From Paracoccaceae bacterium (GTDB lineage: Bacteria; Pseudomonadota; Alphaproteobacteria; Rhodobacterales; Rhodobacteraceae): DNA of 32,429 bases. Position numbers and translations under genes: made by a program. The stretch spans positions 1 through 32,429 of the forward strand of contig JASJDQ010000025.1 of the NCBI GenBank assembly GCA_030065075.1, given 5' to 3'. Below the pieces are notes generated by a model that worked only from the letters and a program-made list of their open reading frames with translations, was not told the DNA's origin and did not search any database. This document shows positions 589 through 32,429 of the stretch, one piece after another (position 1 is the stretch's first letter; the number at the start of each line of letters is the position of its first letter).

Positions 589-721
589 GCCAAGACGAGG
601 ACACTTTCTATGAAGGCAAAAAACTTCGGAATTGCGCCACGGGAGCAGCTTTCTGTGGCCACAATTCTATGCAAAACCTTAACGCAGGTGAGAGGCGTAA
701 TTCGTAGTCGAGAGAGTTCCA

Positions 722-952: not shown

Positions 953-962
953 GGACTGCCCC

Positions 963-1433: not shown

Positions 1434-1436
1434 GCC

Positions 1437-2680: not shown

Positions 2681-2740
2681 CTGGTTATTCGGCGCACGCG
2701 TGCTTAAACTAGGGAAGGCCGAGACACCCGAGGTCCGCCC

Positions 2741-8707: not shown

Positions 8708-8715
8708 TCCTGCGC

Positions 8716-9729: not shown

Positions 9730-9739
9730 TGAAAGGTCC

Positions 9740-10210: not shown

Positions 10211-10392
10211 GGAAACCAACCTTACGAAAAGTCCCAAGGGTTTTACCGTCCCACGATAGCAAAGAGCAAGTCCTGTCGCGGATACAGCCATTTAACCGGG
10301 CAAATGCCAGTGAAAGAATGGCTGGGGTCATTAACCAAACAAAGAGCTTTCTTGGGCAAAAAGGCCGCCGGATCCATTGTGCCTCGCTTGAT

Positions 10393-11523: not shown

Positions 11524-11559
11524 ACAGCCATCGAATTCGCTCGTAACGCTCCGTTTCGA

Positions 11560-11588
11560 TTGACCAAGCGTCGGCTTCTGACTACGCA
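11560..11588 (+). promoter_or_regulatory. Putative promoter of the ETF-QO gene
   Basis: TTGACC (11560-11565) and TACGCA (11583-11588) are spaced 17 bases apart, 30 bases before the ATG at 11618. The -35 is near consensus, and the -10 keeps only the leading TA of the consensus. Confidence 0.35.
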
Positions 11589-11617
11589 ATGTCGGACGAA
11601 TTCGAGAGGGAACATCG

Positions 11618-16600: not shown

Positions 16601-17597
16601 TCCGGGCGACCACGTAGTCGGCGAGGTCGCGCAGCATGTCGCGCAGAGGATGGTCGGGCAGGACCGCAAGGGCATCCTTTGCCGTCGCGGACCATTCAAG
16701 CGCCTGAGCACGTGTGGCGTCCATCGTGCCATGCTTGGCGATGATGGCCAGCGCCTGATCCAGGTCGGCGCCGCTCTGGTCGCCCTTCTCGATGGTGCGG
16801 ACCCAGAAGGCTTGTTCGTCGGCATCGGCCTTGGCAACCGCCTTAATGACCGGTAGCGTTAGTTTTCGTTCACGGAAATCGTCGCCAAGGTTCTTGCCGG
16901 TGGCAGAAGTGTCGCCGCCATAGTCCAACAGATCGTCGGCAATCTGGAAGGCGATGCCCAAAGCGTCGCCATAGGTGTGGAGCGACTTAACCTGCTCTTC
17001 CGAGACGCCTGCGATCACACCGCCGACCTCCGCCGCTGCCGCAAAGAGCGCGGCCGTTTTGCCGCGGACGACTTTCAGATAGATGTCTTCGGTCGTTGCC
17101 AGATTGGCCGCCGCTGTAAGTTGCAGCACCTCGCCCTCGGCGATGGTGGCCGAGGCGTCAGCCAGGATGTCCAGCACACGGAGCGAGCCGGTGGCCGTCA
17201 TCAATTGGAACGAGCGGGCAAAGAGGTAGTCACCGACCAGAACCGAAGACTTGTTGTCCCACAGGAGATTGGCTGTCGGGCGGCCGCGTCGCTGCGCGCT
17301 TTCGTCCACGACATCGTCATGCAAGAGAGTGGCGGTGTGGATGAACTCCACCGTGGCGGCAAGGCGATGGTGATTGACACCCTCGTACCCGCAAAGCCGC
17401 GCCGCCGCCAAAGTCAGCATGGGTCGCACCCGCTTGCCGCCAGCGTCCACCAGATGTGCGGTGACCTCTGGAATGCGTGGCGCGTTTTCTGACGCCATCC
17501 GTTCGCGGATCAGCGCATCAACCGCCGAAAGGTCATCAGCCAGATACTCGGCCAGGCGCTCGTGCGGTTTCACCGATGTTTCGGTGTCCAGGCTCAT
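16593..17597 (-). CDS. ispB: Trans-polyprenyl diphosphate synthase (ubiquinone side chain)
   Basis: This enzyme elongates farnesyl-type diphosphates with isopentenyl diphosphate to a long all-trans chain, probably for ubiquinone. From the start at 17597 (MSLDTETSVKPHERL) it is 334 residues. The first Asp-rich motif HDDVVDE (Asp94, Asp95, Asp98) is followed by RRGRPTAN; the second motif QIADDLLDYGG (Asp220, Asp221, Asp224) follows. These define the class. Chain length (octa- or decaprenyl) cannot be read from the sequence; decaprenyl is usual in Rhodobacterales. An upstream Met at 17780 would run through the neighbouring gene and was rejected. Confidence 0.93.
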   Translation of the reverse strand: MSLDTETSVKPHERLAEYLADDLSAVDALIRERMASENAPRIPEVTAHLVDAGGKRVRPMLTLAAARLCGYEGVNHHRLAATVEFIHTATLLHDDVVDESAQRRGRPTANLLWDNKSSVLVGDYLFARSFQLMTATGSLRVLDILADASATIAEGEVLQLTAAANLATTEDIYLKVVRGKTAALFAAAAEVGGVIAGVSEEQVKSLHTYGDALGIAFQIADDLLDYGGDTSATGKNLGDDFRERKLTLPVIKAVAKADADEQAFWVRTIEKGDQSGADLDQALAIIAKHGTMDATRAQALEWSATAKDALAVLPDHPLRDMLRDLADYVVARIN

Positions 17598-17652
17598 CAC
17601 ACCCCTGTCAGGTCGCTCGACAAACCCTGCGGTCTGCCTTTTATTCCGTTTC

Positions 17653-17868
17653 ATGAAAGAACTTCTGCGCACAAATGATCCGACGGCAATGGCCTTCGCA
17701 AAAGCTCTGCTTGAGGGCGAGGATATAGACTGCTTCGAGATGGACGTCCATATGAGCGTCCTTGAAGGGTCGATTGGCATATTGCCGCGCCGGTTGATGG
17801 TGCGCGATGCGGATCATTTTCAGGCGCGCCATGTTCTGAAGGACAACGACCTGCTGGCAGACGAGTGA
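17653..17868 (+). CDS. DUF2007-type small protein
   Basis: This 71-residue protein (MKELLRTNDPTAMAFAKALL at its start) matches the short DUF2007 'putative signal transducing protein' pattern: an N-terminal strand with LRTNDP, a helix containing the family's AxALLEGEDI stretch, a variable middle and a C-terminal RHVLKDNDLL. The ATG at 17653 is the natural start; the longer upstream frame is antisense to the polyprenyl synthase gene. It overlaps the methyltransferase start and is probably co-transcribed with it. The biochemical role of the family is not established. Confidence 0.85.
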   Translation: MKELLRTNDPTAMAFAKALLEGEDIDCFEMDVHMSVLEGSIGILPRRLMVRDADHFQARHVLKDNDLLADE

Positions 17869-18617
17869 TGGAGACGACGCGCGACGCGTTTCTGGACGGT
17901 CGGCTTGCGATCTCTCAGCCGAAACGAGGGTATCGCGCGGGAGCGGACCCGGTCTTTCTGGCAGCCGCCGTGGATGCTCAGCCCGGCCAGACTGTTTTGG
18001 AGTTGGGTTGCGGGGCGGGGACGGCACTGGCTTGCTTGCTGGCGCGTTGCCCCGAGGTGCGGGCCACGGGGGTAGAGGTCAATTCCGATATGGCGGAGTT
18101 GGCAGTGCGCAATCTGTCGGGCAACAGTTTGAACGCAGAGGTCGTTGTGGGCGACGTGGCTGATCTGCCAAAGAAAATCCGGGCGCAATCGTTCGATCAC
18201 GTGATGATGAACCCGCCATTTTTTGATCGCAAAGAAGGTAGTGTGGCAGAGGATTGCACGCGTGAAGCAGGGCGCGGCGAAGGCACAAAACTGTCCACAT
18301 GGTTAGACACAGGGCTGCGGAGGCTTCGGCCTGGTGGAACGTTAACGATGATTAACAGGATTGAGAAGCTGCCTGCTGCACTTGCAGCACTTCATCCTAG
18401 GGCTGGCGATGTCATCGTTCTTCCGTTGGCGGCCCGCGAAGGGCGGTCCGCGAAGCTCTTTGTTTTACGGGCAAAGAAGGATGCAAATGGCCCCTTCAAG
18501 CTCTTGAGTCCGTTTGTCCTCCACCAGGGCAAGTCCCATGAAAGGGACGGTGACAGTTACACACCAAAGGCTTCTGGTATTCTGCGCCGCGGCAATCCTC
18601 TGCCGCTGCAGAATTAA
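17865..18617 (+). CDS. SAM-dependent methyltransferase, TrmN6/YfiC-like
   Basis: This probably methylates N6 of adenine in RNA: the class includes tRNA1(Val) A37 methyltransferase. The ~250-residue protein has an N-terminal segment (KRGYRAGADPVFLAAAVDA) shared by TrmN6 proteins, the SAM-binding motif VLELGCGAGTA at ~45-55, an acidic residue after the second strand (GVEVNSD) and the catalytic MNPPFFDR at ~115-122, which is the NPPF/Y motif of N6-adenine and N-methyltransferases. Start is GTG at 17865 (overlapping the previous stop) or ATG at 17868. Substrate is inferred from family resemblance only. Confidence 0.85.
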   Translation: MMETTRDAFLDGRLAISQPKRGYRAGADPVFLAAAVDAQPGQTVLELGCGAGTALACLLARCPEVRATGVEVNSDMAELAVRNLSGNSLNAEVVVGDVADLPKKIRAQSFDHVMMNPPFFDRKEGSVAEDCTREAGRGEGTKLSTWLDTGLRRLRPGGTLTMINRIEKLPAALAALHPRAGDVIVLPLAAREGRSAKLFVLRAKKDANGPFKLLSPFVLHQGKSHERDGDSYTPKASGILRRGNPLPLQN

Positions 18618-18719
18618 TCTTCTGATAAGGAATTGTCCCCAACTTGTACGACAGGCGTGACACGAATCGTATTTCGTGCTGCACTCACAGCACCGGTAAT
18701 CACGAACAGGAGGACGACT

Positions 18720-18890
18720 ATGAGCTTGAGTTCCCATCTGCAAGAACTCCGCAAGAAACATGAACATCTTTCAATTGAGGTCGAAGAGGCGCAGCGCAGC
18801 CCGGCATTCGATGATCTTCAAATCACTGCGCTGAAGAAACAAAAACTCAAACTCAAAGAAGAAATCGAGCGGCTTAGCCACCAGCACTGA
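18720..18890 (+). CDS. YdcH/DUF465 small coiled-coil protein
   Basis: The 56-residue protein starts MSLSSHLQELRKKHEHLSIE and is almost wholly a charged amphipathic helix, with the DUF465 pattern: H-L-E-E-x-R-x-K-H-x-x-L, then D-x-x-I-x-x-L-K-K-x-K-L-x-L-K-E-E-I near the C-terminus. A strong ribosome site (AGGAGG) lies before the ATG, which supports real expression. Family function is unknown. The last 17 bases overlap the 3' end of the convergent LysR gene. Confidence 0.88.
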   Translation: MSLSSHLQELRKKHEHLSIEVEEAQRSPAFDDLQITALKKQKLKLKEEIERLSHQH

Positions 18891-19824
18891 CGTCAGCTGA
18901 AGCTGCAAATATGCGATCTTTTGCAAGGTCGCGAAGGCTTTGAGCCTGGTCGTCAATCCAATCCATGAAGGCCGCCACATGCGGTCGGCCTTCGGTTTCG
19001 TGTGGGCACACAAGCCGATATTTCGAGGCTGTCGCCAGCGAAAGCCGAAATGGCATGACCAGCCTGTTGTCGCGCAACGCGGCCTCCGTCAAGGAGCCAC
19101 GGCCCATGATGGCGCCCGTTCCAGCGAGCGCAGCGCTTACGGCGTGATCGGACTGGTTGAAGCGTGCACCGTGAACTTCTGGCGCTGGTAGTCCTGCTGC
19201 TGCAAACCACGCATCCCAGTCGATGGACGGTTTGATGGCGGCCGTCACGTCGTCGGTGAGAAGCGGCACGTTCAACAGATCTTCCGGCGTCTTGACGGTC
19301 TCGGCAAGGCTTGGCGCCATCATTGGGGTGGCCCATTCGTCGGCAAGGGCCCTGGAAAACAGGCTGTCGTCGGGGCGTGGTCCAAATCTGATCGCCAGGT
19401 CCACGTCGTCACGGTCGAAATCGACCAGCTTCAGACTGGCCGAAAACCTCAGTTCGATCTCGGGGTGCTGGGTTGCAAAGGAAAAAAGCCGTGGAGCCAG
19501 CCAAAGCGCGGTAAAGGCCGGCCCTGCCGTAACGGTCAACAGGCTTTGATCCGATTGCCGCCGGGCCCGCGTCCAGGCGCTGGAGATCTCGGTGAACCCG
19601 TCCTGCAATCCCGGTGCCAGCATTTCGCCCACCTCTGTCAGTTTCACGGCTCGGTTCAGACGGTGAAACACGGGCTGGCCCAGGTGCTCTTCCAGTGACT
19701 TGATTTGAAACGAAAGTGCAGCGGGAGTGACGTTCAATTCCTCGGCGGCCTTGGCAAAGGACATATGGCGGGCCGCGGCCTCAAAGGCACGAAGGGCCGT
19801 TAGGGGAGGAAGGCGATCAGACAT
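18874..19824 (-). CDS. LysR-family regulator, GcvA-like
   Basis: This 316-residue DNA-binding transcription regulator has an N-terminal winged helix-turn-helix at ~6-65 (LTALRAFEAAARHMSFAKAA, then ELNVTPAALSFQIKSLEEHL) and a periplasmic-binding-like effector domain at ~90-300 (LLTVTAGPAFTALWLAPRLF; DDVDLAIRFGPRP). It resembles the GcvA subgroup. A perfect 9-base inverted repeat starts two bases upstream of the ATG, so autoregulation is likely. The divergent small gene at 19935 is the obvious candidate target. The effector ligand is unknown. Confidence 0.93.
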   Translation of the reverse strand: MSDRLPPLTALRAFEAAARHMSFAKAAEELNVTPAALSFQIKSLEEHLGQPVFHRLNRAVKLTEVGEMLAPGLQDGFTEISSAWTRARRQSDQSLLTVTAGPAFTALWLAPRLFSFATQHPEIELRFSASLKLVDFDRDDVDLAIRFGPRPDDSLFSRALADEWATPMMAPSLAETVKTPEDLLNVPLLTDDVTAAIKPSIDWDAWFAAAGLPAPEVHGARFNQSDHAVSAALAGTGAIMGRGSLTEAALRDNRLVMPFRLSLATASKYRLVCPHETEGRPHVAAFMDWIDDQAQSLRDLAKDRIFAASADVSAGG

Positions 19825-19825
19825 C

Positions 19826-19850
19826 TTCAGTTAAATACAGCTTAACTGAA
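19826..19850. promoter_or_regulatory. Perfect palindromic operator upstream of the LysR gene
   Basis: TTCAGTTAA (19826-19834) and TTAACTGAA (19842-19850) are exact inverted repeats around a 7-base spacer. The arrangement includes the T-N11-A pattern of LysR-type binding sites. It lies directly in front of the LysR start codon (19824), where bound protein would block its own expression, and about 85 bases upstream of the divergent small gene. Confidence 0.65.
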
Positions 19851-19867
19851 TGCCGGTAAAGTCTCGT

Positions 19868-19896
19868 TTGTCGCAAAGAAAATAATGATCATATTG
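19868..19896 (+). promoter_or_regulatory. Putative promoter of the 33-residue gene
   Basis: TTGTCG (19868-19873) is followed after 16-17 bases by CATATT/ATATTG (19890-19896), inside an A/T-rich patch that contrasts with the surrounding GC-rich DNA. It lies just downstream of the LysR palindrome, ~40 bases before the ATG at 19935. Confidence 0.35.
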
Positions 19897-19934
19897 GGAA
19901 CAGATCAGAAATTCAAAAGCCGAGAGGTCGCCCG

Positions 19935-20036
19935 ATGTACGAAACAACCGCCAACACCCGCACCCGTGATGCCATCCGGAAAGCCCACAACGAACATGCG
20001 CAAATCTTTGCCCGTATCTTCCGCGTCTTCCGGTAA
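19935..20036 (+). CDS. Very small protein (33 residues) divergent from the LysR gene
   Basis: An open frame from ATG 19935 to TAA 20036 encodes 33 residues. It begins MYETTANTRTRDAIRKAHNE and ends with an amphipathic, Phe/Arg-rich helix (QIFARIFRVFR). GAGAGG lies 8 bases before the ATG. The position, divergent from a LysR gene across a palindromic operator, is what a regulator target would have. I recognise no domain. The basic, aromatic tail could associate with membranes or nucleic acid. Confidence 0.5.
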   Translation: MYETTANTRTRDAIRKAHNEHAQIFARIFRVFR

Positions 20037-20061
20037 TCGTTGCAGCTTGTCCGAGAACGCG

Positions 20062-20091
20062 AAAAGGGCCGGCCCCAACCGGGACCGGCCC
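20062..20091 (-). terminator. Rho-independent terminator of phaB
   Basis: An 11-base-pair GC-rich stem with one mismatch (20066-20076 with 20081-20091, loop of four) is followed, reading the minus strand, by TTTT (20065-20062). It lies 19 bases after the phaB stop codon. The convergent small gene at 19935-20036 ends on the other side. Confidence 0.75.
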
Positions 20092-22244: not shown

Positions 22245-23114
22245 TCAACGCCCGTAGTAAAAGCTGACCACGTGTCGCGCTTCGGCAAAGAAAATCCATC
22301 GTTGGATCAGCACGCCCGCCAGATGCAACAGCACCGCCAGCGCTGCGAGGGTATGATGGAAGGGCAAGAACAACAGGAAGGTGGGCAGGATCATCGCGAG
22401 CAAAAGCGCCGCGACCTTGAGCACGGCGGCGTGTTTCCTGCCGACGCGAAAGACCATTTCCTTCGTAAGATAATTTTCACCCGTATGCGGGGCTTCGAAG
22501 GCGTGCACGCGACCGCGGTCGCCCAGGCCCGTGGCTGTGGCGATGTTCGTGTCATCCGCCTTTTCATGCCGATCCTGATCGATCCAAGCGAAGACCTGGA
22601 GGATCAAGAGAAGCGGCAGCAATGCGCGCACCAGCTCGACACGTCCCGTCAGAAGCGCGCCGCCAACGATGGCGTAGGCCAGAAAGACTATGGGCGTCGA
22701 CCAATGGTTCCAGCGCGGCACCGTCCGCATCTGTGCATAGATCATCGATGTCGCAACAACGGTGGCGATGGCCATCAGCCCGCCGGGAATGCCAAAGATG
22801 CGCAGCCGCGTGTCGAAGAAGACCAGCCCGATGGCGTAGAGCCCCATCAGCACGAGCGTGCCGACCGCCAGCCAAGCCTCGCGGCTGAGCCAGGAGGACC
22901 GCCATTGCGTGAAGGCTTTCAAGGCGCGCTCCGGGTGGCCAAGGTGAAAAGTCGAGGCCAGCAGCCCGCCAATGGCAAGCGCATAGGCAATCAGGAAGAA
23001 CCAGAAGGCGGTCCAGCCGCGGGGCGCAGGCACGTCGAGGCTAAGGAAGGCCAACATGCCGAAGCCGAGGCCCGAGAGCGTGGTGAAGAGGATTATCGAG
23101 GGTGCTGGATGCAT
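22245..23114 (-). CDS. soeC: Membrane anchor subunit SoeC (DmsC-like)
   Basis: This is a polytopic protein of 289 residues with about eight hydrophobic segments (for example SIILFTTLSGLGFGMLAFLS, then AFWFFLIAYALAIGGLLAS). It has the DmsC/NrfD-type membrane-anchor pattern, including FHLGHPERALKAFTQWRSSW. It would anchor the iron-sulfur and molybdenum subunits to the cytoplasmic face of the inner membrane and pass electrons to quinone. The start codon at 23114 overlaps the soeB stop by one base (TGATG). Assignment to Soe rather than another DMSO-reductase-type anchor rests on the partner subunits. Confidence 0.75.
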   Translation of the reverse strand: MHPAPSIILFTTLSGLGFGMLAFLSLDVPAPRGWTAFWFFLIAYALAIGGLLASTFHLGHPERALKAFTQWRSSWLSREAWLAVGTLVLMGLYAIGLVFFDTRLRIFGIPGGLMAIATVVATSMIYAQMRTVPRWNHWSTPIVFLAYAIVGGALLTGRVELVRALLPLLLILQVFAWIDQDRHEKADDTNIATATGLGDRGRVHAFEAPHTGENYLTKEMVFRVGRKHAAVLKVAALLLAMILPTFLLFLPFHHTLAALAVLLHLAGVLIQRWIFFAEARHVVSFYYGR

Positions 23115-23863
23115 CAAGACACCTTCGACAATGTGCGGTCGAGCCAGCCGAGGAAGCCCGCCGGCTCTTCGGCGACCGGCTCGAGGAACGGCGCCAGTAC
23201 ATCAAAATCGGGCACTTCGTCGCGCGGTCGCGGTGGCAGATAGCGGTTCACCGGGGCCGTGCCTTGTTCCGGCATCAATTCGAAGCCGCCGCGGTCCGCT
23301 ACCAGTTTCGAGACGTCGCTTTCCGGGTCGGAAAGGTCTCCGAAGTGGCGGGCGCCCGCAGGGCAGGTGCGCACGCAGGCGGGTTGTCGGTCTTCTTCCG
23401 GCAGGTTTTCGTTATAGATGCGGTCGACGCAGAGTGTGCATTTCTTCATCACCTGCTCTTCGGGGTCCATCTCGCGGGCACCATATGGGCAGGCCCAGGC
23501 ACAAAGCCCGCAGCCGATGCAATCGCTTTCGTTCACCAGCACGATGCCGTCTTCGACGCGCTTGTAGCTGGCACCCGTCGGGCAGACGGTGACGCAGGGC
23601 GCGTCAGCGCAGTGAAGGCAGCTTTTCGGCATGTGGAAAAGCTGGGCCGGACCATGTTCGTGCTGAACCTCGTAGGAATGCACCCGGTTCAGGAAACTGC
23701 CAACCGGGTTCGCGCCATAGGCATCCTTATCCGCGAGCGGTGCGCCGTAGTTTTCCGTGTTCCAGCCTTTGCAGGCGGTGACGCAGGCATGGCAGCCGAC
23801 GCAGGTGTCGAGATCGATGACGAGTCCGAGCGACTTTTCAGTGTGTTGCGGCAAAGTGGTCAT
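23114..23863 (-). CDS. soeB: Iron-sulfur subunit SoeB (DmsB-like ferredoxin)
   Basis: This 249-residue ferredoxin subunit has four [4Fe-4S] cysteine clusters: DTCVGCHACVTACKGWN near residue 20, CLHCADAPCVTVCPTGA, DCIGCGLCAWACPYGARE, and KKCTLCVDRI with ACVRTCPAGARHFGD. It would relay electrons from the molybdenum subunit to the membrane anchor. The start at 23863 (MTTLPQHTEKSLGLVIDLDT) is preferred to the GTG seven codons upstream. A palindromic intergenic element precedes it, separating it from the 84-residue gene. The C-terminal ~50 residues are Pro/acid-rich and outside the ferredoxin domain. Confidence 0.8.
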   Translation of the reverse strand: MTTLPQHTEKSLGLVIDLDTCVGCHACVTACKGWNTENYGAPLADKDAYGANPVGSFLNRVHSYEVQHEHGPAQLFHMPKSCLHCADAPCVTVCPTGASYKRVEDGIVLVNESDCIGCGLCAWACPYGAREMDPEEQVMKKCTLCVDRIYNENLPEEDRQPACVRTCPAGARHFGDLSDPESDVSKLVADRGGFELMPEQGTAPVNRYLPPRPRDEVPDFDVLAPFLEPVAEEPAGFLGWLDRTLSKVS

Positions 23864-23881
23864 GGGCAGTTCCCAGGCGGG

Positions 23882-23968
23882 CACGCCTGCGGCGTGGCTC
23901 TTTGTTTTTGCGCCGGCTTCGCCGTCGCGGTGCCTCCGGCGGGGATACTTCGGAATGGGCGAAAGAGT
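23882..23968 (+). repeat. GC-rich palindromic intergenic element, copy 2 (inside soe operon)
   Basis: This composite element sits in the gap between the 84-residue gene and soeB. It begins with the perfect stem CACGCC-TGC-GGCGTG (23882-23896), continues with a T-rich stretch TTTGTTTTTG and a GGCTTCGCC hairpin, and ends with CCTCCGGCGGGGATACTTCGG (23934-23953, part of it shared with copy 1), then GGGCGAAAGAG. It resembles the intergenic elements common in Rhodobacteraceae. Reading soe mRNA (minus strand) it could set different stabilities for soeA and soeBC. Confidence 0.55.
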
Positions 23969-24223
23969 TCACTCACCAATAGCATAGACGACCTCCATTC
24001 CTTGCATCCGTTCAAAGGCGACGCGGACTGTTGTCGGGATTTTTGGCAGGGAGAGGACACTGTCGATATGTGTGTCGAGAAGTTTGGTGTCTTCATACTC
24101 GGAAAGCTGCCATGCGACCGCATGTGCGTCCAACGACGCGTTGAGACATTCGATGTCGTGCGCCGACAGGCTGGCAATCGGGGCAGTCTTTCCGTCTCTG
24201 GTGGTATGGAAGGTCACGCTCAT
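23969..24223 (-). CDS. 84-residue protein coupled to soeA, unknown function
   Basis: The start ATG at 24223 overlaps the soeA stop as ATGA, which indicates translational coupling. The product begins MSVTFHTTRDGKTAPIASLS and includes SAHDIECLNASLDAHAVAWQ, LSEYEDTKLLDTHIDSVLSL and ends in MEVVYAIGE. It has no signal peptide, membrane segment or Cys pair (a single Cys), and looks like a compact alpha/beta domain. Longer upstream frames (to 24346) lie antisense within soeA sequence in another frame and were not used. Position between soeA and soeB suggests an assembly or maturation factor for the molybdoenzyme, by inference. Confidence 0.7.
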   Translation of the reverse strand: MSVTFHTTRDGKTAPIASLSAHDIECLNASLDAHAVAWQLSEYEDTKLLDTHIDSVLSLPKIPTTVRVAFERMQGMEVVYAIGE

Positions 24224-27024
24224 GCGCCGAGCTTTTGCTTGACGGATGTTGGGGCTTCGCTGACCGGGCTTTTCTGCGGCGGGTGCGATGGCTGGCTTTC
24301 TGAAGGTGCAGTGGCTTTCTCGATCTTGACGCGGAGGTCGAACCACGCGGCTTGCCCTGTGATCGGGTCCGAGTTGGCCCAGCGAAGGCCGTCGCCTTTC
24401 GGCGGCTGCAGTTCGTGGATAATGTGGTTCAGCAGGAAGCCTTTCGTTGTCTCCGGTGCATCCTTGTCCAGCGCCCAGGCTCCTTTCCGTTTGCCGATGG
24501 CGTTCCAGGTCCAGACCGTGTTTTCGTTAAGCGCGGCCATATGGGCGACGGGGACCGTAATTTCGCCATGGGGCGAGGTCACGCGTGCCCAGTCGCCTTC
24601 CTTGAAGCCATTGGCTACCCAAATCTTGGTTGGCACATAGAGCGGGTTTCGCCCGTGGATTTGTCGGAGCCAGGCGTTTTGCGAGCCCCAGGAGTGGTAC
24701 ATGGCCATCGGGCGCTGGGTCAGTGCATGGACCTCGAAGCCGTTGTCTGCGTCAGAAAACGGCGAATACCAGACCGGAAGTGGGTCCATGGTTTCTACGT
24801 ATCGGTCCTTCAAATGGCCGGGCGGTGAGAGGCGGTGTTTGCCCTCTGCGGCCAGTTGGAAGCGACGGAGCGGTTCGCACCAGAGCGTGAATAGATAAGG
24901 CGCAGGCGCGTCGAAGAGGCCGAGGTTCACTGCCCAGTCCTGATAAGTATTGTTCCAGGGTTTATAGAACTCGGCGTCTTCCGGGATGTGGCTGATCCAG
25001 AAGCTGCCGTTTTCGATGTACTTCTGTATCTGGTTCGGGTTTGGCGCGCCGCGGCCATGGTCTTCGCCATTACCTCGGAAGCCTGCCAATGGGCCGATGC
25101 CTGGCTTGCGCTCGTGGTTTTGAATGTAGTCGCCGTAGTCCGCATACTTCTGGCTTCCGTCCTCGTTCACGAACCCCGGCAGGTCGAGCATGGCCCCCAG
25201 TTCGCAGAGCACCGACTGGAAGCCGCGTACGTCACGGTCGGGTTCGACCACCGGCCAGCGGATGGCGTCGGCCGCGGCCTCGGCCTCGCAGATGGGACGG
25301 TCGAGGAGTGAGATGCAGTCGTGGCGTTCGAGGTAAGTCGTGTCGGGCAGGATCAGGTCGGCATAGGCCACCATTTCCGATGAGTAGGCATCGGAATAGA
25401 TGATGCGCGGGATGACATAGTCGCCGGTCTCGTCCTTGTCCGTCAGCATCTTCATGACACCCGAGGTGTTCATCGACGAGTTCCAAGACATGTTCGCCAT
25501 GTAGAGCATCAGCGTGTCGATCTTGTATGGATCGCCGGCGTGCGCGTTCGAGATGACCATGTGCATCAGGCCATGGGCGCTCATGGGGTTCTCCCAGGAG
25601 AACGCCTTGTCGATGCGTTTGGGCGTGCCGTTTTCGTCGATCAGCAGGTCGTCGGGACCGTGGAGGAAGCCGAGGTGCGGGCCGTCGAGCGGCTTGCCGG
25701 GTGTGACGCCGGCGTGGGGCTTCGGGTGGATGGTCGAGGGTTTGGGGTAGGGTGGCTTGAAACGGAAGCCTCCCGGCACCTCGACGCTTCCGAGAATGAT
25801 TTGCAGAAGATGCAGGGCACGGCAGGTCTGGAACCCGTTCGAATGGGCCGAGATACCGCGCATTGCGTGGAAGGCGACAGGCCGTCCGACCATCTTGTCG
25901 TGCTTGTCGCCCCGGAAGTCGGTCCATTCGCGATCAAGCTCGATCGCTTCGTCGAAGGCTACACGCGCGAGCTCGGCGGCGATGGCCCGGATACGATTTG
26001 CGTCGACGCCGACCTTGGAGGCGACAGTCTCGGGGGCGTAGTCGTCGCTCAGGTATTTCTCTGCCATGTGGTGCAGGACAGGGCGGTGCGTGATGCCCGC
26101 GTGACGGTAAGTGGCCGAGAGGTCAGGCCGGACGCCGGGCGTGTCGTAGGCTTCCGGCTTGCCGGTGCGGCGGTCGATGACCAGTTTCTTCCCCGCCTCG
26201 TTGGTCAGGATCAGCCCGTGTTCGTCGCTGTCCTTATCCCCGTTCACCAAGCACGGCGCGTCTGTGAAGCGGGCGAGGTATACGAGGTCAATCCGGCCCG
26301 CCTTCATCAGGCAATGGACAAGGCTGAGAATGAATAGGCCATCGGTGCCGGGCGTGATGCCGACCCATTCATCTGCGATGGCGTTGTAGCCGGTGCGGAT
26401 GGGGTTGACGCCGATCACTTTCGCACCCCGCGCCTTCAGCTTGCCAAGGCCCATCTTGATCGGGTTCGAGTCATGATCCTCCGCCACGCCGAAGATCATG
26501 AAGAGCTTCGTCCGGTCCCAGTCGGGCTGGCCAAACTCCCAAAAGGCCCCGCCCATCGTATAGATGCCTGCAGCCGCCATGTTGACGGAGCAAAACCCGC
26601 CATGTGCGGCATAGTTCGGGGTGCCGAAGGCTTGCGCCCAGTAGGAGGTGAAGGATTGTGACTGGTCCCGACCGGTGAAGAAGGCAAATTTGGACTGATC
26701 GGTCTCGCGCAGTGGCTTGAGCCAGGACACAGCAGTTTCCAGCGCCTCGTCCCACGAGATTTCTTCAAACTCGCCCGATCCCCTTGGTCCCACACGCTTC
26801 ATGGGCGCGCGAAGGCGGGCAGGCGAGAGATGCTGCATGATCCCCGACGAGCCCTTGGCGCAAAGAACGCCTTGGTTGACGGGATGATCGCGATTGCCCT
26901 CGATGTAGGCCACCTGACCGTCTTTCATGTGCACGTTGATGCCGCACCGGCAGGCGCACATGTAGCAGGTGGTTTTGCGGATCTCGTCCGACACCTTTGG
27001 TGATGTATCAAGATCCACGGACAT
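24220..27024 (-). CDS. soeA: Molybdopterin oxidoreductase SoeA (sulfite dehydrogenase)
   Basis: This is the 934-residue catalytic subunit, probably oxidising sulfite to sulfate in the cytoplasm with electrons to quinone. Start at 27024 (MSVDLDTSPKVSDEIRKTTC) has a strong AGGAGG. There is no Tat signal, so the enzyme is cytoplasmic, as SoeA is and most periplasmic relatives are not. N-terminal [4Fe-4S] ligands are Cys20, Cys23, Cys27 and Cys55 (CYMCACRCG ... GVLCAKGSSG). The molybdenum ligand is probably Cys145 in AHGGFCSVNMAA. The MGD-binding C-terminal domain includes LTQRPMAMYHSWGSQNAWLR. The family also contains thiosulfate, polysulfide and arsenate enzymes; sulfite is inferred from architecture and group. 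Confidence 0.75.
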   Translation of the reverse strand: MSVDLDTSPKVSDEIRKTTCYMCACRCGINVHMKDGQVAYIEGNRDHPVNQGVLCAKGSSGIMQHLSPARLRAPMKRVGPRGSGEFEEISWDEALETAVSWLKPLRETDQSKFAFFTGRDQSQSFTSYWAQAFGTPNYAAHGGFCSVNMAAAGIYTMGGAFWEFGQPDWDRTKLFMIFGVAEDHDSNPIKMGLGKLKARGAKVIGVNPIRTGYNAIADEWVGITPGTDGLFILSLVHCLMKAGRIDLVYLARFTDAPCLVNGDKDSDEHGLILTNEAGKKLVIDRRTGKPEAYDTPGVRPDLSATYRHAGITHRPVLHHMAEKYLSDDYAPETVASKVGVDANRIRAIAAELARVAFDEAIELDREWTDFRGDKHDKMVGRPVAFHAMRGISAHSNGFQTCRALHLLQIILGSVEVPGGFRFKPPYPKPSTIHPKPHAGVTPGKPLDGPHLGFLHGPDDLLIDENGTPKRIDKAFSWENPMSAHGLMHMVISNAHAGDPYKIDTLMLYMANMSWNSSMNTSGVMKMLTDKDETGDYVIPRIIYSDAYSSEMVAYADLILPDTTYLERHDCISLLDRPICEAEAAADAIRWPVVEPDRDVRGFQSVLCELGAMLDLPGFVNEDGSQKYADYGDYIQNHERKPGIGPLAGFRGNGEDHGRGAPNPNQIQKYIENGSFWISHIPEDAEFYKPWNNTYQDWAVNLGLFDAPAPYLFTLWCEPLRRFQLAAEGKHRLSPPGHLKDRYVETMDPLPVWYSPFSDADNGFEVHALTQRPMAMYHSWGSQNAWLRQIHGRNPLYVPTKIWVANGFKEGDWARVTSPHGEITVPVAHMAALNENTVWTWNAIGKRKGAWALDKDAPETTKGFLLNHIIHELQPPKGDGLRWANSDPITGQAAWFDLRVKIEKATAPSESQPSHPPQKSPVSEAPTSVKQKLGA

Positions 27025-27277: not shown

Positions 27278-27670
27278 ATGACCGAGACGATCCTTTGGTA
27301 CTTTGTCGCAATCAATGTTCTGACGCTGACCGTGTCGATAATGGACAAGGGTTTTGCGGTTTATGACAAGCGCCGCGTGCCTGAGAATGCGCTGCTGACC
27401 ATGTCGTTCGTCGGTGGCGCCGTTGGCGCCAAGCTGGCGCAGATCATTTCGGGGCACAAATCGCTCAAGATCGACTTTACGGCGTCGCTCAGCCTGATTG
27501 CGTTTCTGCAGCTGGCTGTTGCCTTGGCATTTTGGTCCGAAACCGTTCGGCAGGAGGTGGCGGCAGCCTATGAACGCGTCGCGGCGTCCTTCGAGAAGGA
27601 GGAGGCCGAGAATGTACGCTATGTCTCGCGCGACAAGGAATTGCCCCGTCGGTTTGGGCCGGGCAGCTAG
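27278..27670 (+). CDS. DUF1294-family membrane protein
   Basis: This 130-residue protein has the DUF1294 layout: a first membrane segment (ETILWYFVAINVLTLTVSIM, residues ~3-22), the motif DKGFAVYDKRRVPENALLTM, a second glycine-rich segment (FVGGAVGAKLAQII) and a third hydrophobic stretch (SLIAFLQLAVALAFW). The C-terminal ~45 residues are charged and cytoplasmic. The family has no firm function. Weak AAGGG lies before the ATG. It is divergent from soeA and converges on the aldolase gene with a 4-base gap. Confidence 0.8.
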   Translation: MTETILWYFVAINVLTLTVSIMDKGFAVYDKRRVPENALLTMSFVGGAVGAKLAQIISGHKSLKIDFTASLSLIAFLQLAVALAFWSETVRQEVAAAYERVAASFEKEEAENVRYVSRDKELPRRFGPGS

Positions 27671-27674
27671 GTCG

Positions 27675-28448
27675 CTAGGACGTCAGTTCTCGAAACGCCT
27701 TGAGCGTGGCAGCCGCGCCTTGCGCCAGGATGGCGCTATCCGTTGCAACTGTGACCATGTCATAGCCCCAGTCGACGGCCTTGGCGGCGTATTCCGGTGT
27801 ACCGCAGTGCAAGGCGGCGCGTTTTCCGTTGTCATGTGCGGCTTCTAAAATGCGTTTGATGGCGTCGATCATCTCGGGCTCTTCACGGTCCAGCTTGGGC
27901 GGAAGCGCGCCATTCGTCATTCCAAGCGATAGGTCCGATGGCCCGACATAGAGGGCGTCAAGATGAGGCGTCGCGGCGATTGCATCGACATTCTTGAACG
28001 CCTCAGCGGTTTCGATCATCGCGAAGGCCAGAACAGCATCATTCGCACCGTCCTTGTTGTAGTCGGGATAGGCGAACATCGCGCGCGTCGGTCCCCAACT
28101 CCGCTGACCCAAGGGCGGGTACCGCAGGTAGCTCACAAACTCTTCGGCCTCTTCCCGGGTATTCACCATCGGGCAGATAATCCCCATGGCGCCTGCGTCC
28201 AGGAACTTCATGATCCATGTCGGGTCGCACCACGGCACACGCGCCATAAGTGTCTTGCCCGAAGCGCGCATCGCCTGAAACATCGGTAGCAGGTTCGAAT
28301 AGTCGTTGGGTCCGTGCTGAGCGTCGATAGTGAGCGAGGTGAAATCCTGCGCCGCCATGATTTCGGCTGGAAAGGAGTGGGGCAGGTTGAGCCAGGCGTT
28401 GACCGCCGTTTCGTCGCGGTTCCAAACGTCGCGAACCAGGTTTTTCAT
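27675..28448 (-). CDS. HpcH/HpaI-family aldolase
   Basis: This metal-dependent (class II) aldolase of the 2,4-dihydroxyhept-2-ene-1,7-dioate/2-keto-3-deoxy-acid class typically releases pyruvate (or a related 2-oxo acid) and an aldehyde. The 257 residues contain the active-site His in LTIDAQHGPNDY, Arg in MARVPW, the metal-binding Glu in FAMIETAEAF and Asp in LYVGPSDLSLGM. Length is standard. It is the most downstream member of the right-hand minus-strand gene group and has a probable promoter of its own. The actual substrate is not readable. Confidence 0.88.
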   Translation of the reverse strand: MKNLVRDVWNRDETAVNAWLNLPHSFPAEIMAAQDFTSLTIDAQHGPNDYSNLLPMFQAMRASGKTLMARVPWCDPTWIMKFLDAGAMGIICPMVNTREEAEEFVSYLRYPPLGQRSWGPTRAMFAYPDYNKDGANDAVLAFAMIETAEAFKNVDAIAATPHLDALYVGPSDLSLGMTNGALPPKLDREEPEMIDAIKRILEAAHDNGKRAALHCGTPEYAAKAVDWGYDMVTVATDSAILAQGAAATLKAFRELTS

Positions 28449-28482
28449 GCGAGTATCCTTCGTGAGCCTTCAGTTGGAAGCG

Positions 28483-28511
28483 ACTTCACGTTGGACGACA
28501 GGTGATGTCAA
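28483..28511 (-). promoter_or_regulatory. Putative promoter of the aldolase gene
   Basis: On the minus strand TTGACA (28511-28506) matches the -35 consensus and is followed after 17 bases by TGAAGT (28488-28483), a weak -10, 34 bases before the ATG at 28448. It starts after the stop codon of the 58-residue gene. Confidence 0.35.
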
Positions 28512-28522
28512 CAAAGCTGGAG

Positions 28523-28699
28523 CTACTGGAAGTCTTCCGGGCGTACGCCGAACGCCACCGTGAACGAAGCCAGCGAGGCCACGCCAACAAAGGCGTAAAC
28601 GGCCAGGAAGTAGGCGACACCAAAGTCCAGACCAAGCATGCTGATGCATGTGATTGCCAAAGCCAAAGGAAGGCTGAGAAGGACTGCTCCGAATGCCAT
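28523..28699 (-). CDS. 58-residue two-segment membrane protein
   Basis: ATG at 28699 to TAG at 28525-28523 encodes 58 residues. It reads MAFGAVLLSLPLALAITCIS, then MLGLDFGVAY, then FLAVYAFVGVASLASFTVAF and a short hydrophilic end GVRPEDFQ: two hydrophobic helices with a short polar turn. GGGAG lies 6 bases before the ATG, a good ribosome site. A TTGACA-type promoter precedes it. It stands between the creatininase and aldolase genes on the same strand. I recognise no family; a small membrane partner or transporter subunit is possible. Confidence 0.6.
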   Translation of the reverse strand: MAFGAVLLSLPLALAITCISMLGLDFGVAYFLAVYAFVGVASLASFTVAFGVRPEDFQ

Positions 28700-28752
28700 A
28701 TTGCTCCCGCGGGTTTTCCCGTCCCGACCAGTAATCTTTACCAGTGGTAGGA

Positions 28753-28782
28753 TTTAAGTGGCATTGGGCCTTGTTTTGTCAA
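28753..28782 (-). promoter_or_regulatory. Putative promoter of the 58-residue gene
   Basis: On the minus strand TTGACA (28782-28777) is followed after 18 bases by CTTAAA (28758-28753), within a locally AT-rich stretch. It would drive the small membrane gene, and possibly the aldolase, independently of the larger upstream operon. A CGGG-AAAA-CCCG hairpin lies between it and the start codon. Confidence 0.4.
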
Positions 28783-28801
28783 TAAACCGTTGCCTTCGCG
28801 G

Positions 28802-29596
28802 TCAGTATGACCTGTTTGTAGGCGAAAACCCGCCGACAGATTGATCCCGGACGGTGCGCAACAGGTCTATGAAGCCCGAAATTTGGTGTTCTGCGGTCTT
28901 ATGGCCCTTTTCGGCTGTCGCCAGATGGGCCTCGCCAACGGTGCCAGCGGGATGCAAATCGGACGCAATCCACCCGTAGGACACAGGCCCAATGGGTGAG
29001 ATTGGCATCGTTTCGGCGGTCGAAGCGAAGTTGTCTGCCCGAGACATGTCGACCAACTCGGGCCGGAAATGCAGCATGAGCGACGTTTCGCGGTCGCCGC
29101 CGTGAATGCCGAATTGCACCTCGCCGTCAGAGTACAGGCCGTCCGGCGTACCGAAGTTGCCCCACTGGCATTTCACGCAAAACATGCCAGCATCTACGCG
29201 CAATTCGCGCGCGAGGATCGAGATAAGATCGAGGTTGCCGCCGTGGCTGTTGACGATGACCATCTTGCGAACGCCTGCGCGGGCGACTGACAGACCGATG
29301 TCTTTCCAGACACGAAGCGCGTTTTCGGCGGTATAGGTCAGCGTACCGGGTGCGTGCAGATGTTCGTTGGATTTGCCGACCGCCTGAACGGGCAAGATGC
29401 GTATGTCCAGATCGTCCGGGCAGTTCTTGCGAAGCTCGCCAAGCATGCCCTCGGCAATCATCGTGTCGACACCAACCGGAAGATGAGGCCCGTGCTGTTC
29501 GATGGCCGCCGTTGGCAGGATCGCGATGACCTGCCCTGGGTCGATGTCCTCGAACTCAGTCGTTCGGAATTCGGCCCAGTCGAAGCGGCGCGTCAT
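28802..29596 (-). CDS. Creatininase-family amidohydrolase
   Basis: The 264-residue product from ATG 29596 (MTRRFDWAEFRTTEFEDIDP) has the creatininase family metal site: Glu33, His35 and Asp44 in AAIEQHGPHLPVGVDT, His118 in VNSHGGN, and Glu170 in HGGDRETS. Members hydrolyse cyclic amides or formamides (creatinine, formamidopyrimidines, dehydro-inosose). The start codon overlaps the stop of the dioxygenase gene as ATGA, so it is the last gene of a coupled operon. The frame extends upstream into the dioxygenase gene but with no family resemblance there. Confidence 0.85.
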   Translation of the reverse strand: MTRRFDWAEFRTTEFEDIDPGQVIAILPTAAIEQHGPHLPVGVDTMIAEGMLGELRKNCPDDLDIRILPVQAVGKSNEHLHAPGTLTYTAENALRVWKDIGLSVARAGVRKMVIVNSHGGNLDLISILARELRVDAGMFCVKCQWGNFGTPDGLYSDGEVQFGIHGGDRETSLMLHFRPELVDMSRADNFASTAETMPISPIGPVSYGWIASDLHPAGTVGEAHLATAEKGHKTAEHQISGFIDLLRTVRDQSVGGFSPTNRSY

Positions 29597-30528
29597 GCCG
29601 TGATCTTCTCGGCATAGGTCGCATCGAGCCGCATCTTCAGATACTCGGCCCCAGTCACCGGCGGGTACTTCGCGGTGCCGGTACCAGGCAAAGCCTCGAT
29701 AACGGCGTCGGGGTTCGGGTCGAGGAAGAAGGCCAGTGAGCGTCGCGGATTCCTGGGCACCAACACGCGATGCGGGGTAGAGACATAGATGTCGTTGGTC
29801 CACCGCATCAGGCAATCGGCGATGTTGATGATAAAGGCGCCGGGAACCAGCGGCACGTCGATCCAATCCTTGTCGCGCGGCTGGACCTGCAGCCCCGGTT
29901 CGCCATCGCTGTAAAGCACGGTGATCGAGCCATAGTCGGTGTGCGCACCTGCACCGATCCCACCATCGCGGTCTCCGCCCGGATAACGCAGCATCCGAAG
30001 TGTCGCGAGCGGTTCGTCCAGATAGGGGGCGAAGTAATGCTCGGGCAGGCCAAGGTCCAAGGCAATGGCGCGGTGCAGATCGACACCAAGTGCGTGGACA
30101 GCGTTGAAATAGGCCATCACCGTGTCGCGGAACCCGGGCACATCGGGCCAGGCATTCATCCCCCGGAAGGGCTGGCTGGACAGACGCGGGTCGTCGGGTG
30201 CGAACTCGAGCCCGGTGTTGAAGGCCTCCTTTCGGTCGACCTGATCCGGCTTGCTGTCATCGAGGTTCTCGGTGCCCGGACCGGACCAGCCACGGTTGTT
30301 GCCCACCGTTCGGATGTCCAGCTTGACCTTCTCTTCGGTTGGGAGGGCAAAGAAACGATCGGCGACTGCGAGGGTGTCGTCAATCAGTGATTGGGGGATG
30401 CCGTGCCCGGTGACCAGAAAGAAGCCGGTGTCGCGGCAGGCTTTCGAAAGATCGGCGACGAACCCTTCGCGGTCGCTGCCAGAGGTGAAGCGCGACCAGT
30501 CGAGAACGGGGATGTGCGTGTCTGTCAT
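29593..30528 (-). CDS. Isopenicillin-N-synthase-family 2-oxoglutarate/Fe(II) dioxygenase
   Basis: This 311-residue non-heme iron enzyme has an N-terminal DIOX_N-like part (IPVLDWSRF, DTGFFLVTGHGIP) and a double-stranded beta-helix core. The iron triad is His196 and Asp198 in GAHTDYGSITVL and His253 in STPHRVLV; Arg262-x-Ser264 in NPRRSLAFFLDPNPD binds the 2-oxoglutarate carboxylate. The region PGLQVQPRDKDWIDVPLVPG is typical of plant-type and bacterial members. It could hydroxylate or ring-open a small substrate. Both ends overlap neighbours by ATGA, coupling it to the quinone reductase upstream and the creatininase downstream. Confidence 0.9.
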   Translation of the reverse strand: MTDTHIPVLDWSRFTSGSDREGFVADLSKACRDTGFFLVTGHGIPQSLIDDTLAVADRFFALPTEEKVKLDIRTVGNNRGWSGPGTENLDDSKPDQVDRKEAFNTGLEFAPDDPRLSSQPFRGMNAWPDVPGFRDTVMAYFNAVHALGVDLHRAIALDLGLPEHYFAPYLDEPLATLRMLRYPGGDRDGGIGAGAHTDYGSITVLYSDGEPGLQVQPRDKDWIDVPLVPGAFIINIADCLMRWTNDIYVSTPHRVLVPRNPRRSLAFFLDPNPDAVIEALPGTGTAKYPPVTGAEYLKMRLDATYAEKITA

Positions 30529-31124
30529 GAGAGAAAACGATCCATGGTCTTGGCCACCCGGTCAAGATGGGCTTTGCGACTTTCGGGTGTGGAGCTGTCC
30601 ATCAGGTAATGCGCGGCAAAGGCTTTTTTCAGCGGCTTTGCGCACAGAAGCCCGATGCCCCGAAAGAGCGTGCGTTTGCCGGGGGCGCCGACGAAGAATG
30701 TCAGCCAGCGCGAGGCGCCACAGGTTGTGAAGACGCCGAGGCGCTTGATGTGTGTCAGGCCCGGGCGGATGTCCTTGTTGTCGGCATCCGGCATCAAGAA
30801 GGCGACCTCGGGCACAAGGACGCGGTCAAGCCATCCTTTCAACATCGCAGGCAGACCGTACCACCAGGTCGGATAGATGAAGATAAGCGTGTCGCACCAT
30901 CGCAGGTCGCCAACATCCTGCGCGACCGGCTCGGTGTTCCGAGTGGCGTTCAGATAGATATCCAACTCGTGGCAGCTCAATACGGGATGGAAATTGCGCT
31001 TGTAGAGGTCAGAAACCCGGATTTCCGCCCCGTACGCCTGCAACTTGCCGACGACGGTTTCGCGGACGGCTTCGTTAAAGCAACCTTGTCGCGGGTGGCA
31101 GTAAACGACAAGGGCCTTCATCAT
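30525..31124 (-). CDS. Flavodoxin-fold NAD(P)H:quinone reductase, second copy
   Basis: The 199-residue protein starts MMKALVVYCHPRQGCFNEAV and belongs to the Flavodoxin_2 (NQO1/MdaB-like) family: FMN/FAD-binding CHPRQGCFN, IFIYPTWWYGLPAMLKGWLD with the flavin-contacting Trp-Trp-Tyr, and RVLVPEVAFLM. It probably performs two-electron reduction of a quinone or of a flavin substrate. It is a diverged paralogue of the gene just upstream, with which it overlaps by ATGA, and its stop overlaps the dioxygenase start. Confidence 0.88.
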   Translation of the reverse strand: MMKALVVYCHPRQGCFNEAVRETVVGKLQAYGAEIRVSDLYKRNFHPVLSCHELDIYLNATRNTEPVAQDVGDLRWCDTLIFIYPTWWYGLPAMLKGWLDRVLVPEVAFLMPDADNKDIRPGLTHIKRLGVFTTCGASRWLTFFVGAPGKRTLFRGIGLLCAKPLKKAFAAHYLMDSSTPESRKAHLDRVAKTMDRFLS

Positions 31125-31699
31125 AGCGCCTGCATTTCGCGTTCGACCTTGCTTAGGAAGGCTTGGCGTTGCCCATCGGTCGCACGGTTCATGTCGTAGA
31201 GCGCCAGATAGCGCATGCGTTCGGGCCGGGTGACATGCCAGACCGCGCGGGTGAAGTGTTTGCGTGGCGGGTCGCCCGCTCCGATGGCGCGGAAACGGGT
31301 GCCTCCATAGGTCGTGACGGCGACGAGTTTTCGGATATGGGTCAGGTTCGGTCGAACCTTGCCGTCCACCAGCTTGAACGACACGCCAGGCAGAAAGACG
31401 CGATCCAGAAACCCCTTCAGGATGGCCGGATAGCCGAAGTTCCAAACCGGGAAAGAAAAGATCAAGGCCTCCGTGGCCCGCAGCCGATCCACGTAAGGCT
31501 GCACCGGTCCGCAATTCTCGGGCTCGTCATGGTAGCCGCGACGTTCCTCGGTCGTCAGGATCGGCTGAAAGCCTTCGGCGTACAGATCGCAATCGTCAAC
31601 CTCCCAGCCGCGTTGGCTCAGCGTCTCCACGATCTTGGTGTGCAGCGCCGCGCCAAAGCTTTCCTCGCACGGGTGGGCGAAAAGGACGAGTGCTTTCAT
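31121..31699 (-). CDS. Flavodoxin-fold NAD(P)H:quinone reductase, first copy
   Basis: The 192-residue protein begins MKALVLFAHPCEESFGAALH, with the HPxxxSF nucleotide-binding motif of the Flavodoxin_2 family, and has IFSFPVWNFGYPAILKGFLD followed by RVFLPGVSF, matching the second copy. The C-terminal region differs between the copies, suggesting different substrates or dimer partners. It follows the FAD oxidase gene by 58 bases without a clear ribosome site, and overlaps the next gene by four bases. Confidence 0.88.
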   Translation of the reverse strand: MKALVLFAHPCEESFGAALHTKIVETLSQRGWEVDDCDLYAEGFQPILTTEERRGYHDEPENCGPVQPYVDRLRATEALIFSFPVWNFGYPAILKGFLDRVFLPGVSFKLVDGKVRPNLTHIRKLVAVTTYGGTRFRAIGAGDPPRKHFTRAVWHVTRPERMRYLALYDMNRATDGQRQAFLSKVEREMQAL

Positions 31700-31757
31700 G
31701 CGAGGCCAGTTTTTTTGAAGAAGATGGAGCTCAAAACTCGATTTCTCTGGTCCCCGC

Positions 31758-32429
31758 TCATTCGGCCGCCTGCAACTTCGGATAGGCGTACATCCTGTCG
31801 AAGGACCAATCGGGATCGTCCCAGGCGATCATCTTGCCGGGGTTCAACAACCCCTTGGGGTCGGCCTCTTGCTTGAATTTCAACTGACGATCATCGACCG
31901 TCTGTCGCCCGCCTTCTTCCAGCGTGTAGCGGTGCGGGTTGAAAATCATCGCGCCCGCGTCTTCATGCATCTTCACAATCTCATCCAGACGCTCTTCAGT
32001 CGTGAACTTTACAAGGCTCAACCCGGCGAACATGACCTTCCCGCTTTCGCGCAGAACCTCGAGGTGCTGCAGGACCTCGGGTGAGAGTGCGCTCTGCATC
32101 TTTTCGATCAGGTCCTTGTGTTCGGGATAGCCGTAGCGGACCTGCAGATAAGTGATCGACGGATCGACCTTCAACGCCCGCAGGGTTGTATGGTTCCAGC
32201 CATACTCGAACACCGGTCCCGGATCGCGCGCCCAGTCTTGATCGTCGTTGCGATAGATCAGCCTTGCCTCGGGTCGTCGCCCAAGGAACGTCAGAAATCC
32301 GTCCATCGAATGCGGCGCGATCATCAGTCCGATCAGGTTGGTGCTGCTTTCGACGTATGGCGCCACGCGCTGAAAATAGTCCTTGGCGACGGGCGCTTCG
32401 AAGACTGTGCCCAGCTTCATCAGGATGCC
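31758..32429 (-). CDS. VAO-type FAD-linked oxidase, C-terminal part (cut at right edge)
   Basis: The frame is open from base 32429 to the stop at 31758, ~223 residues, so the N-terminus (including the FAD-binding PP-loop domain) is outside the window. The visible part includes DDQDWARDPGPVFEYGWNHT, LTGLAL-like FAGLSLVKFTTEERLDEIVK, HRYTLEEGGRQTVDDRQLKF and the C-terminal DPKGLLNPGKMI, which is the family hallmark of FAD-binding oxidases such as vanillyl-alcohol oxidase and 4-cresol dehydrogenase. The apparent Met at 32420 is internal. It is the first visible gene of the cluster. Confidence 0.85.
   Translation of the reverse strand, partial: GILMKLGTVFEAPVAKDYFQRVAPYVESSTNLIGLMIAPHSMDGFLTFLGRRPEARLIYRNDDQDWARDPGPVFEYGWNHTTLRALKVDPSITYLQVRYGYPEHKDLIEKMQSALSPEVLQHLEVLRESGKVMFAGLSLVKFTTEERLDEIVKMHEDAGAMIFNPHRYTLEEGGRQTVDDRQLKFKQEADPKGLLNPGKMIAWDDPDWSFDRMYAYPKLQAAE

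Follow-up and report, generated by a model that had tools for sequence, protein, structure and literature searches.

A conserved operon of Rhodobacterales that probably serves the uptake and degradation of a pterin- or folate-type N-heterocycle

The DNA analyzed here (the window; 32,429 nucleotides) is the whole of contig G000:C36 of a Paracoccaceae bacterium (accession no. JASJDQ010000025.1). Its terminal part carries five minus-strand genes, encoding an FAD-dependent enzyme, two Flavodoxin_2 oxidoreductases (FldA and FldB), a 2-oxoglutarate/Fe(II) dioxygenase and a creatininase-family amidohydrolase (CREA). These genes are the 3′ half of a larger conserved uptake-and-degradation operon, which is most likely a Rhodobacterales form of an operon for the catabolism of folate/pterin compounds, with a flavin enzyme known from its structure. 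Since the solved relative of the FAD enzyme was linked to folate breakdown by its depositors, the compounds handled are probably folate- or pterin-like ring compounds and not an unknown aromatic. We assign a probability of roughly 0.6 to the operon serving the uptake and degradation of a pterin/folate-type N-heterocycle.

Organization and conservation of the operon

The presence of the five genes, in the order given in a preliminary description of this DNA, was confirmed by the window sequence and by Pfam. The contig end falls inside the FAD gene, leaving the C-terminal 223 amino acids (aa) of its product in the window (31758–32429, minus strand, as are all the following genes). Next are FldA, a Flavodoxin_2 NAD(P)H-dependent oxidoreductase (31121–31699; 192 aa; PF02525, 1.4e-28), its second paralogue FldB (30525–31124; up to 199 aa; PF02525, 2.9e-30), the isopenicillin N synthase (IPNS)-type dioxygenase (29593–30528; 311 aa; PF14226 (DIOX_N) and PF03171 (2OG-FeII_Oxy)) and CREA (28802–29596; 264 aa; PF02633, 4.6e-67). 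Direct reading of the sequence identified the three ATGA overlaps reported earlier, at 31124–31121, 30528–30525 and 29596–29593. At the first of these junctions a second in-frame ATG (31121) immediately follows the ATG at 31124, and FldB may therefore start there, without overlap. FldA and FldB were also correctly recognized as paralogues (36% identity); both match PF02525, and neither reaches an NCBIfam cut-off.

The upstream half was found on another contig of the same genome, C111 (5,071 bases), which contains a RidA gene on the minus strand and, in operon order, genes for the binding protein (SBP) of an NMT1-type ABC importer, an ATPase, a permease, a cytosine-deaminase-like amidohydrolase (AMID) and the N-terminus of the FAD enzyme. 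The FAD-enzyme profile (A2 model) is covered over positions 1–181 by C111 and over positions 244–465 by the window; judging from synteny, the two contigs probably adjoin. The full unit comprises RidA (divergent), followed by SBP, ATPase, permease, AMID, FAD enzyme, FldA, FldB, the dioxygenase (where present) and CREA. The five genes originally taken as the extent of the operon are real, but the genes that reveal most about the substrate (importer, deaminase-like AMID and RidA) are located on C111.

Relatives of the dioxygenase (E ≤ 1e-60) were detected at 23 places in 22 of 198 genomes of the same family (own genome counted), and the neighborhoods of 20 of these places were analyzed (all except the own copy and those in G065 and G049). 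The order FAD enzyme-FldA-FldB-dioxygenase was observed in 16 of the 20 regions, while four contain the dioxygenase without this block. Of the 16 block-bearing regions, 14 also contain CREA (truncated by the contig end in L026), and 12 have a RidA gene in divergent orientation. To the extent covered by their contigs, these regions contain genes for an NMT1-type SBP, an ABC ATPase, a permease and AMID upstream of the FAD gene. The gene block is conserved beyond chance.

A scan of GTDB species genomes with an FAD-enzyme alignment yielded at least 572 relatives, of which the best 80 loci, mostly from Rhodobacterales, were kept; this sample is therefore weighted toward near relatives, includes the FAD enzyme by design and overlaps in some contigs with the 20 regions described above. 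Among the 72 loci with at least 6.5 kb of upstream DNA, SBP, ATPase, permease and AMID are present in all 72, and RidA in 59. Among the 70 loci with at least 4.5 kb of downstream DNA, FldA was identified in 66, FldB in 68, CREA in 61 and the dioxygenase in 37. Together with the 16 of 20 family regions, these counts bear out the idea of a conserved block, as the genes are kept together in many genomes. A locus devoid of CREA does not always belong to a genome devoid of it: of two genomes examined in this respect, G148 contains a 73% identical copy elsewhere, and G084 only a 47% identical one.

The dioxygenase, initially regarded as a core step, is an optional insert. The aligned ends of FldB and CREA are 907–969 bases apart in loci with the dioxygenase (30 loci) and 3–131 bases apart in those without it (29 loci), indicating that the gene behaves as a clean insert cassette.

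Relatives of the FAD enzyme at E ≤ 1e-90, a count that takes in the own genome and diverged paralogues, occur in 73 of 292 genomes of the order, 18 of 385 of the class and 32 of 398 of the phylum. Four Rhizobium/Agrobacterium plasmids carry an operon with CREA, a LysR regulator, SBP, ATPase, permease, a “cytosine deaminase”, the FAD enzyme, one reductase and a RidA-type gene. These plasmid operons are devoid of the dioxygenase and of the window's second reductase, whereas loci L155 and L157 have two reductases.

The FAD-dependent enzyme and its partners

No Pfam or NCBIfam model matched the 223-aa FAD fragment alone. The fragment does match the protein of PDB entry 6v42 (E 1.4e-61), and FAD_binding_4 was found in the full-length orthologue from locus L033. 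An AlphaFold model of the orthologue from Silicimonas algicola (L047; mean pLDDT 82) has 6v42 as its top structural match (Z 46.5, rmsd 2.1, 441 aligned residues, 55% identity), the next row having a Z of 30.2. By sequence and fold, via full-length orthologues, the window FAD enzyme is an orthologue of 6v42, an entry entitled “Crystal structure of the flavin oxygenase with cofactor bound involved in folate catabolism”. The identity of 6v42 is 64–66% to rhizobial-type and 56–60% to Rhodobacterales members (among the 45 matches listed).

In a tree of 73 rows, 6v42 is placed inside a 10-row rhizobial clade (support 90/86); this clade and a group of 34 rows, mostly from Rhodobacterales, make up a clade of 44 rows (support 100/99). 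Apart from 6v42, the rhizobial clade has nine rows, eight of which are accompanied, within the stretches examined, by CREA, importer, AMID, Fld and RidA genes (rearranged in L157). The flavin oxygenase of 6v42/6v43 thus resembles the window enzyme both as an orthologue and in belonging to a sister clade with the same core genes; the two systems differ in that the dioxygenase of the window operon was seen in none of these nine rows. Given the title of 6v42, the tree placement and the shared core genes, folate catabolism is the best available label for this group of FAD enzymes, and the window enzyme would, by analogy with that title, be a flavin oxygenase acting in folate catabolism.

In the dioxygenase, H196, D198, H253 and R262 are invariant in 20 sequences, leaving the HxD...H ligands and the arginine intact. 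The top structural rows for its predicted model (pLDDT 91) are thymine 7-hydroxylase (Z 37.2, 282–285 aligned residues), in a tie with other enzymes; the Neurospora enzyme 5c3q superimposes at 1.8 Å over 282 residues, with Z 37.2 and 36% identity. Such a likeness of the modeled fold would suit an N-heterocyclic substrate. In CREA, E33, H35, D44, H118 and E170 are invariant in 19 of 19 sequences; the protein scores below the cut-offs of the models for both creatininase (EC 3.5.2.10; TIGR04448, 90.4 vs 235 bits) and the mycofactocin peptidase MftE (TIGR03964, 97.7 vs 172 bits).

Tandem paralogues of the FAD enzyme were noticed in two alphaproteobacterial loci, three in L164 (approximately 7834–11900) and two in L165 (approximately 8228–10900), an arrangement that would fit a diversification of the family toward several substrates.

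Substrate of the operon and proposed pathway

For the window organism we infer the following scheme of substrate, step order, electron route, product and dioxygenase role. The ABC importer would take up a pterin/folate-type compound, and AMID would hydrolyze its 2-amino (guanidine-like) group, as in pterin deaminases. The FAD enzyme, as a flavin oxygenase, may oxygenate the deaminated ring, with reduced flavin or electrons provided from NAD(P)H through FldA/FldB; the preliminary description had assigned quinone handling to these two proteins, but Flavodoxin_2 members could equally reduce flavin for an oxygenase. The resulting cyclic or ring-opened amide would be hydrolyzed by the creatininase-family metalloenzyme, while RidA may clear a reactive imine or enamine. 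The IPNS-type dioxygenase could add an optional oxidation, perhaps of the C6 side chain or of the ring.

A more specific proposal, which we put forward tentatively, is that the operon might be the missing downstream route that mineralizes the pteridine ring after deamination, employing a VAO-like FAD_binding_4 oxygenase, flavodoxin-like reductases, a creatininase-fold ring-opening hydrolase, RidA and an optional 2-oxoglutarate dioxygenase cassette, and that this route is widespread in Rhodobacterales and rhizobia. The question whether bacteria degrade deaminated folate products, and by what route, is raised in a study of Variovorax sp. F1 (PMC9513972). The conserved unit of ten genes, which includes an enzyme type of solved structure, would offer a concrete route for this breakdown, and, judging from the spread of FAD-enzyme relatives, marine and plant-associated bacteria could regularly feed on pterin- or folate-like compounds. 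The initial statement that no described pathway has this gene set can be kept in part: no published account of the whole set, and no paper on the chemistry after deamination, was found in the open-licence literature searched, but the FAD enzyme does have a solved orthologue titled as folate catabolic.

A second, weaker line comes from a beta-proteobacterial genome (G915), where a cluster of Fld, SBP, FAD enzyme, permease, ATPase and CREA genes is located next to a gene for an amidohydrolase of 400 aa, which is immediately followed by RidA. The G915 amidohydrolase is 35–37% identical to the rhizobial AMIDs compared, and the FAD enzyme is 39% identical to that of L033. A Roseateles plasmid matches 12% of this region, and Variovorax and Comamonadaceae plasmid records match it in segments of roughly 100 bases. 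According to the Variovorax study, the deaminase that acts on folic and pteroic acid is 399 aa long and 37.0% identical to the pterin deaminase Arad3529 of Agrobacterium radiobacter, and an “endoribonuclease” gene lies downstream of its counterparts in V. paradoxus (PMC9513972); we read this gene as encoding a RidA-type protein. The G915 pair of a 400-aa amidohydrolase and RidA recalls this arrangement, and AMID would be of the same cytosine-deaminase-like kind as the Variovorax and Arad3529 enzymes. The Variovorax system differs in scope: the parts of the study consulted end at deaminopteroic acid, and its text contains neither “creatininase” nor “oxygenase” (PMC9513972).

Several observations weigh against a pterin/folate-type substrate. 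The window FAD fragment shares 50% identity with 6v42 over 211 aligned residues, and its specificity may therefore have shifted. Within the 6v42 clade, CREA is not in the stretch examined of L212. The folate link itself rests on the PDB title, as searches of the open-licence literature turned up no paper that names 6v42 or 6v43. No folate hydrolase was noticed as recurring beside the operon among the neighbor groups, which were left unnamed. The likeness of AMID to the Variovorax deaminase and Arad3529 consists of parallels in length, RidA-type neighbor and percent identity, and the link of G915 to the main operon is indirect, since its FAD enzyme falls in a distant branch of the tree. In the structural comparison of the dioxygenase model, Anc357 and TraH (Z 36.6–36.7), among others, are tied with thymine 7-hydroxylase, so that the structural neighbors do not single out a function. 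Moreover, AMID of L033 scores 610.9 bits against the cut-off of 403 of the NCBIfam equivalog NF005759 (“cytosine deaminase”), and AMID of an orthologous locus scores 699.5.

The NF005759 scores would agree with the utilization of a pyrimidine (cytosine, 5-methylcytosine or a thymine-like compound), in which AMID would be a true cytosine deaminase, the dioxygenase would resemble thymine 7-hydroxylase (the top rows for its model), the FAD enzyme and CREA would open the ring, and RidA would take the role of RutC. The Rut pyrimidine pathway likewise combines an oxygenase, a hydrolase and a RidA-type protein acting on an N-heterocycle, and genes for urea amidolyase, allophanate hydrolase and isochorismatase-type proteins are located near the operon of Rhizobium etli CIAT 652. 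However, RidA of L033 falls far below the RutC cut-off (24.5 vs 169.1 bits), and the remaining operon enzymes are of families different from those of Rut. When one sequence, L033 AMID, was aligned with cytosine deaminase 4r7w, the HxH, HxDE, H and D motifs were shared, whereas the FPQEG segment, whose Gln binds cytosine, was absent from AMID. The dioxygenase is missing from 33 of the 70 loci, and the solved FAD-enzyme orthologue is assigned to folate catabolism. We consider a pyrimidine substrate unlikely.

A comparably low probability is given to a change of substrate of the 6v42 family within Rhodobacterales, toward another N-heterocycle such as a purine derivative, a breakdown product of flavin or deazaflavin, a hydantoin, or a synthetic triazine or imidazole. 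The NMT1/THI5 family of binding proteins is broad, and a paoABC molybdenum hydroxylase set occurs near the operon on two plasmids. Clusters of an FAD enzyme, a creatininase-family protein and an importer exist in several diverged types, two of them with other dioxygenases, which suggests several substrates. Nevertheless, no specific alternative is indicated, and the 6v42 clade is the sister of the Rhodobacterales clade and shares its core genes in eight of nine rows.

Least probable by far is the oxidation, dioxygenation and cleavage of an aromatic compound, with release of a C3 unit by an HpcH/HpaI aldolase. The aldolase gene (27675–28448, minus strand; PF03328) follows the operon in the window and in L046 and L047. 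These are, however, the only two such cases among the 80 best loci, and in the window the gene lies 353 bases downstream of CREA, behind a 58-aa hydrophobic ORF (MAFGAVLLSLPLALAI...; 28523–28699, minus strand). The aldolase scores below the cut-off of the HpaI model (136.8 vs 368.8), and an importer, a deaminase and RidA would fit poorly with a plain aromatic. On the grounds of the locus count and the gap, the aldolase was rejected as a member of the operon or pathway, and the carbon-carbon cleavage step proposed with it falls outside the conserved unit. From the catabolic pathway first suggested for an aromatic or N-heterocyclic compound, an operon-like catabolic set with a plausible N-heterocyclic substrate remains, and a plain aromatic is disfavored.

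Flanking genes and diverged clusters

Scanning of positions 27600–32429 was uninformative, given 0 promoter-like sites against 1.4 expected and five terminator-like sites against 4.8 expected. Six loci (119,505 bases) contained no riboswitch or other known RNA at the gathering threshold. Clustering of the ORFs of 105 loci placed extra neighbors, i.e. groups with a median place outside the core span, in at most seven loci each.

In the window, the region 22245–27021 (minus strand) encodes a molybdopterin oxidoreductase, a 4Fe-4S subunit and a hydrophobic protein of 290 aa that may be a membrane subunit. The top NCBIfam scores of the oxidoreductase are for thiosulfate/DMSO reductases, below cut-off.

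The paoABC-type molybdenum hydroxylase genes are located at 1875–5671 in L127 (which also contains xdhC) and at 15196–19000 in L174, the hosts being Rhizobium johnstonii 3841 and Agrobacterium CFBP7129; such hydroxylases near the plasmid operons could hydroxylate pteridines. In R. etli CIAT 652 (L175), the flanks of the operon (1–3808 and 16840–20090) carry urea amidolyase, amidase, isochorismatase-type and allophanate hydrolase genes.

A second, distinct IPNS-type dioxygenase (31–34% identical) is encoded beyond RidA in L031 (17665–18657) and L040 (approximately 17498–18397), on the minus strand in both. Diverged related clusters contain other dioxygenases, IPNS-type in A. tumefaciens F2 and TauD-type in Ruegeria sp. 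TM1040, suggesting that an extra oxidation has been recruited more than once. The TM1040 cluster, located on the megaplasmid (L217, 4694–10261), comprises RidA, a class-I glutamine amidotransferase, a creatininase-family protein, an amidohydrolase, an FAD enzyme and the TauD-type dioxygenase; it is a diverged sister cluster with a different dioxygenase family in the same setting.

RidA, SBP, ATPase, permease and FAD enzyme genes were also identified in Klebsiella pneumoniae (L216; accession no. CP125156.1), in a 5.37-Mb record that is labeled as a plasmid and is probably a chromosome.

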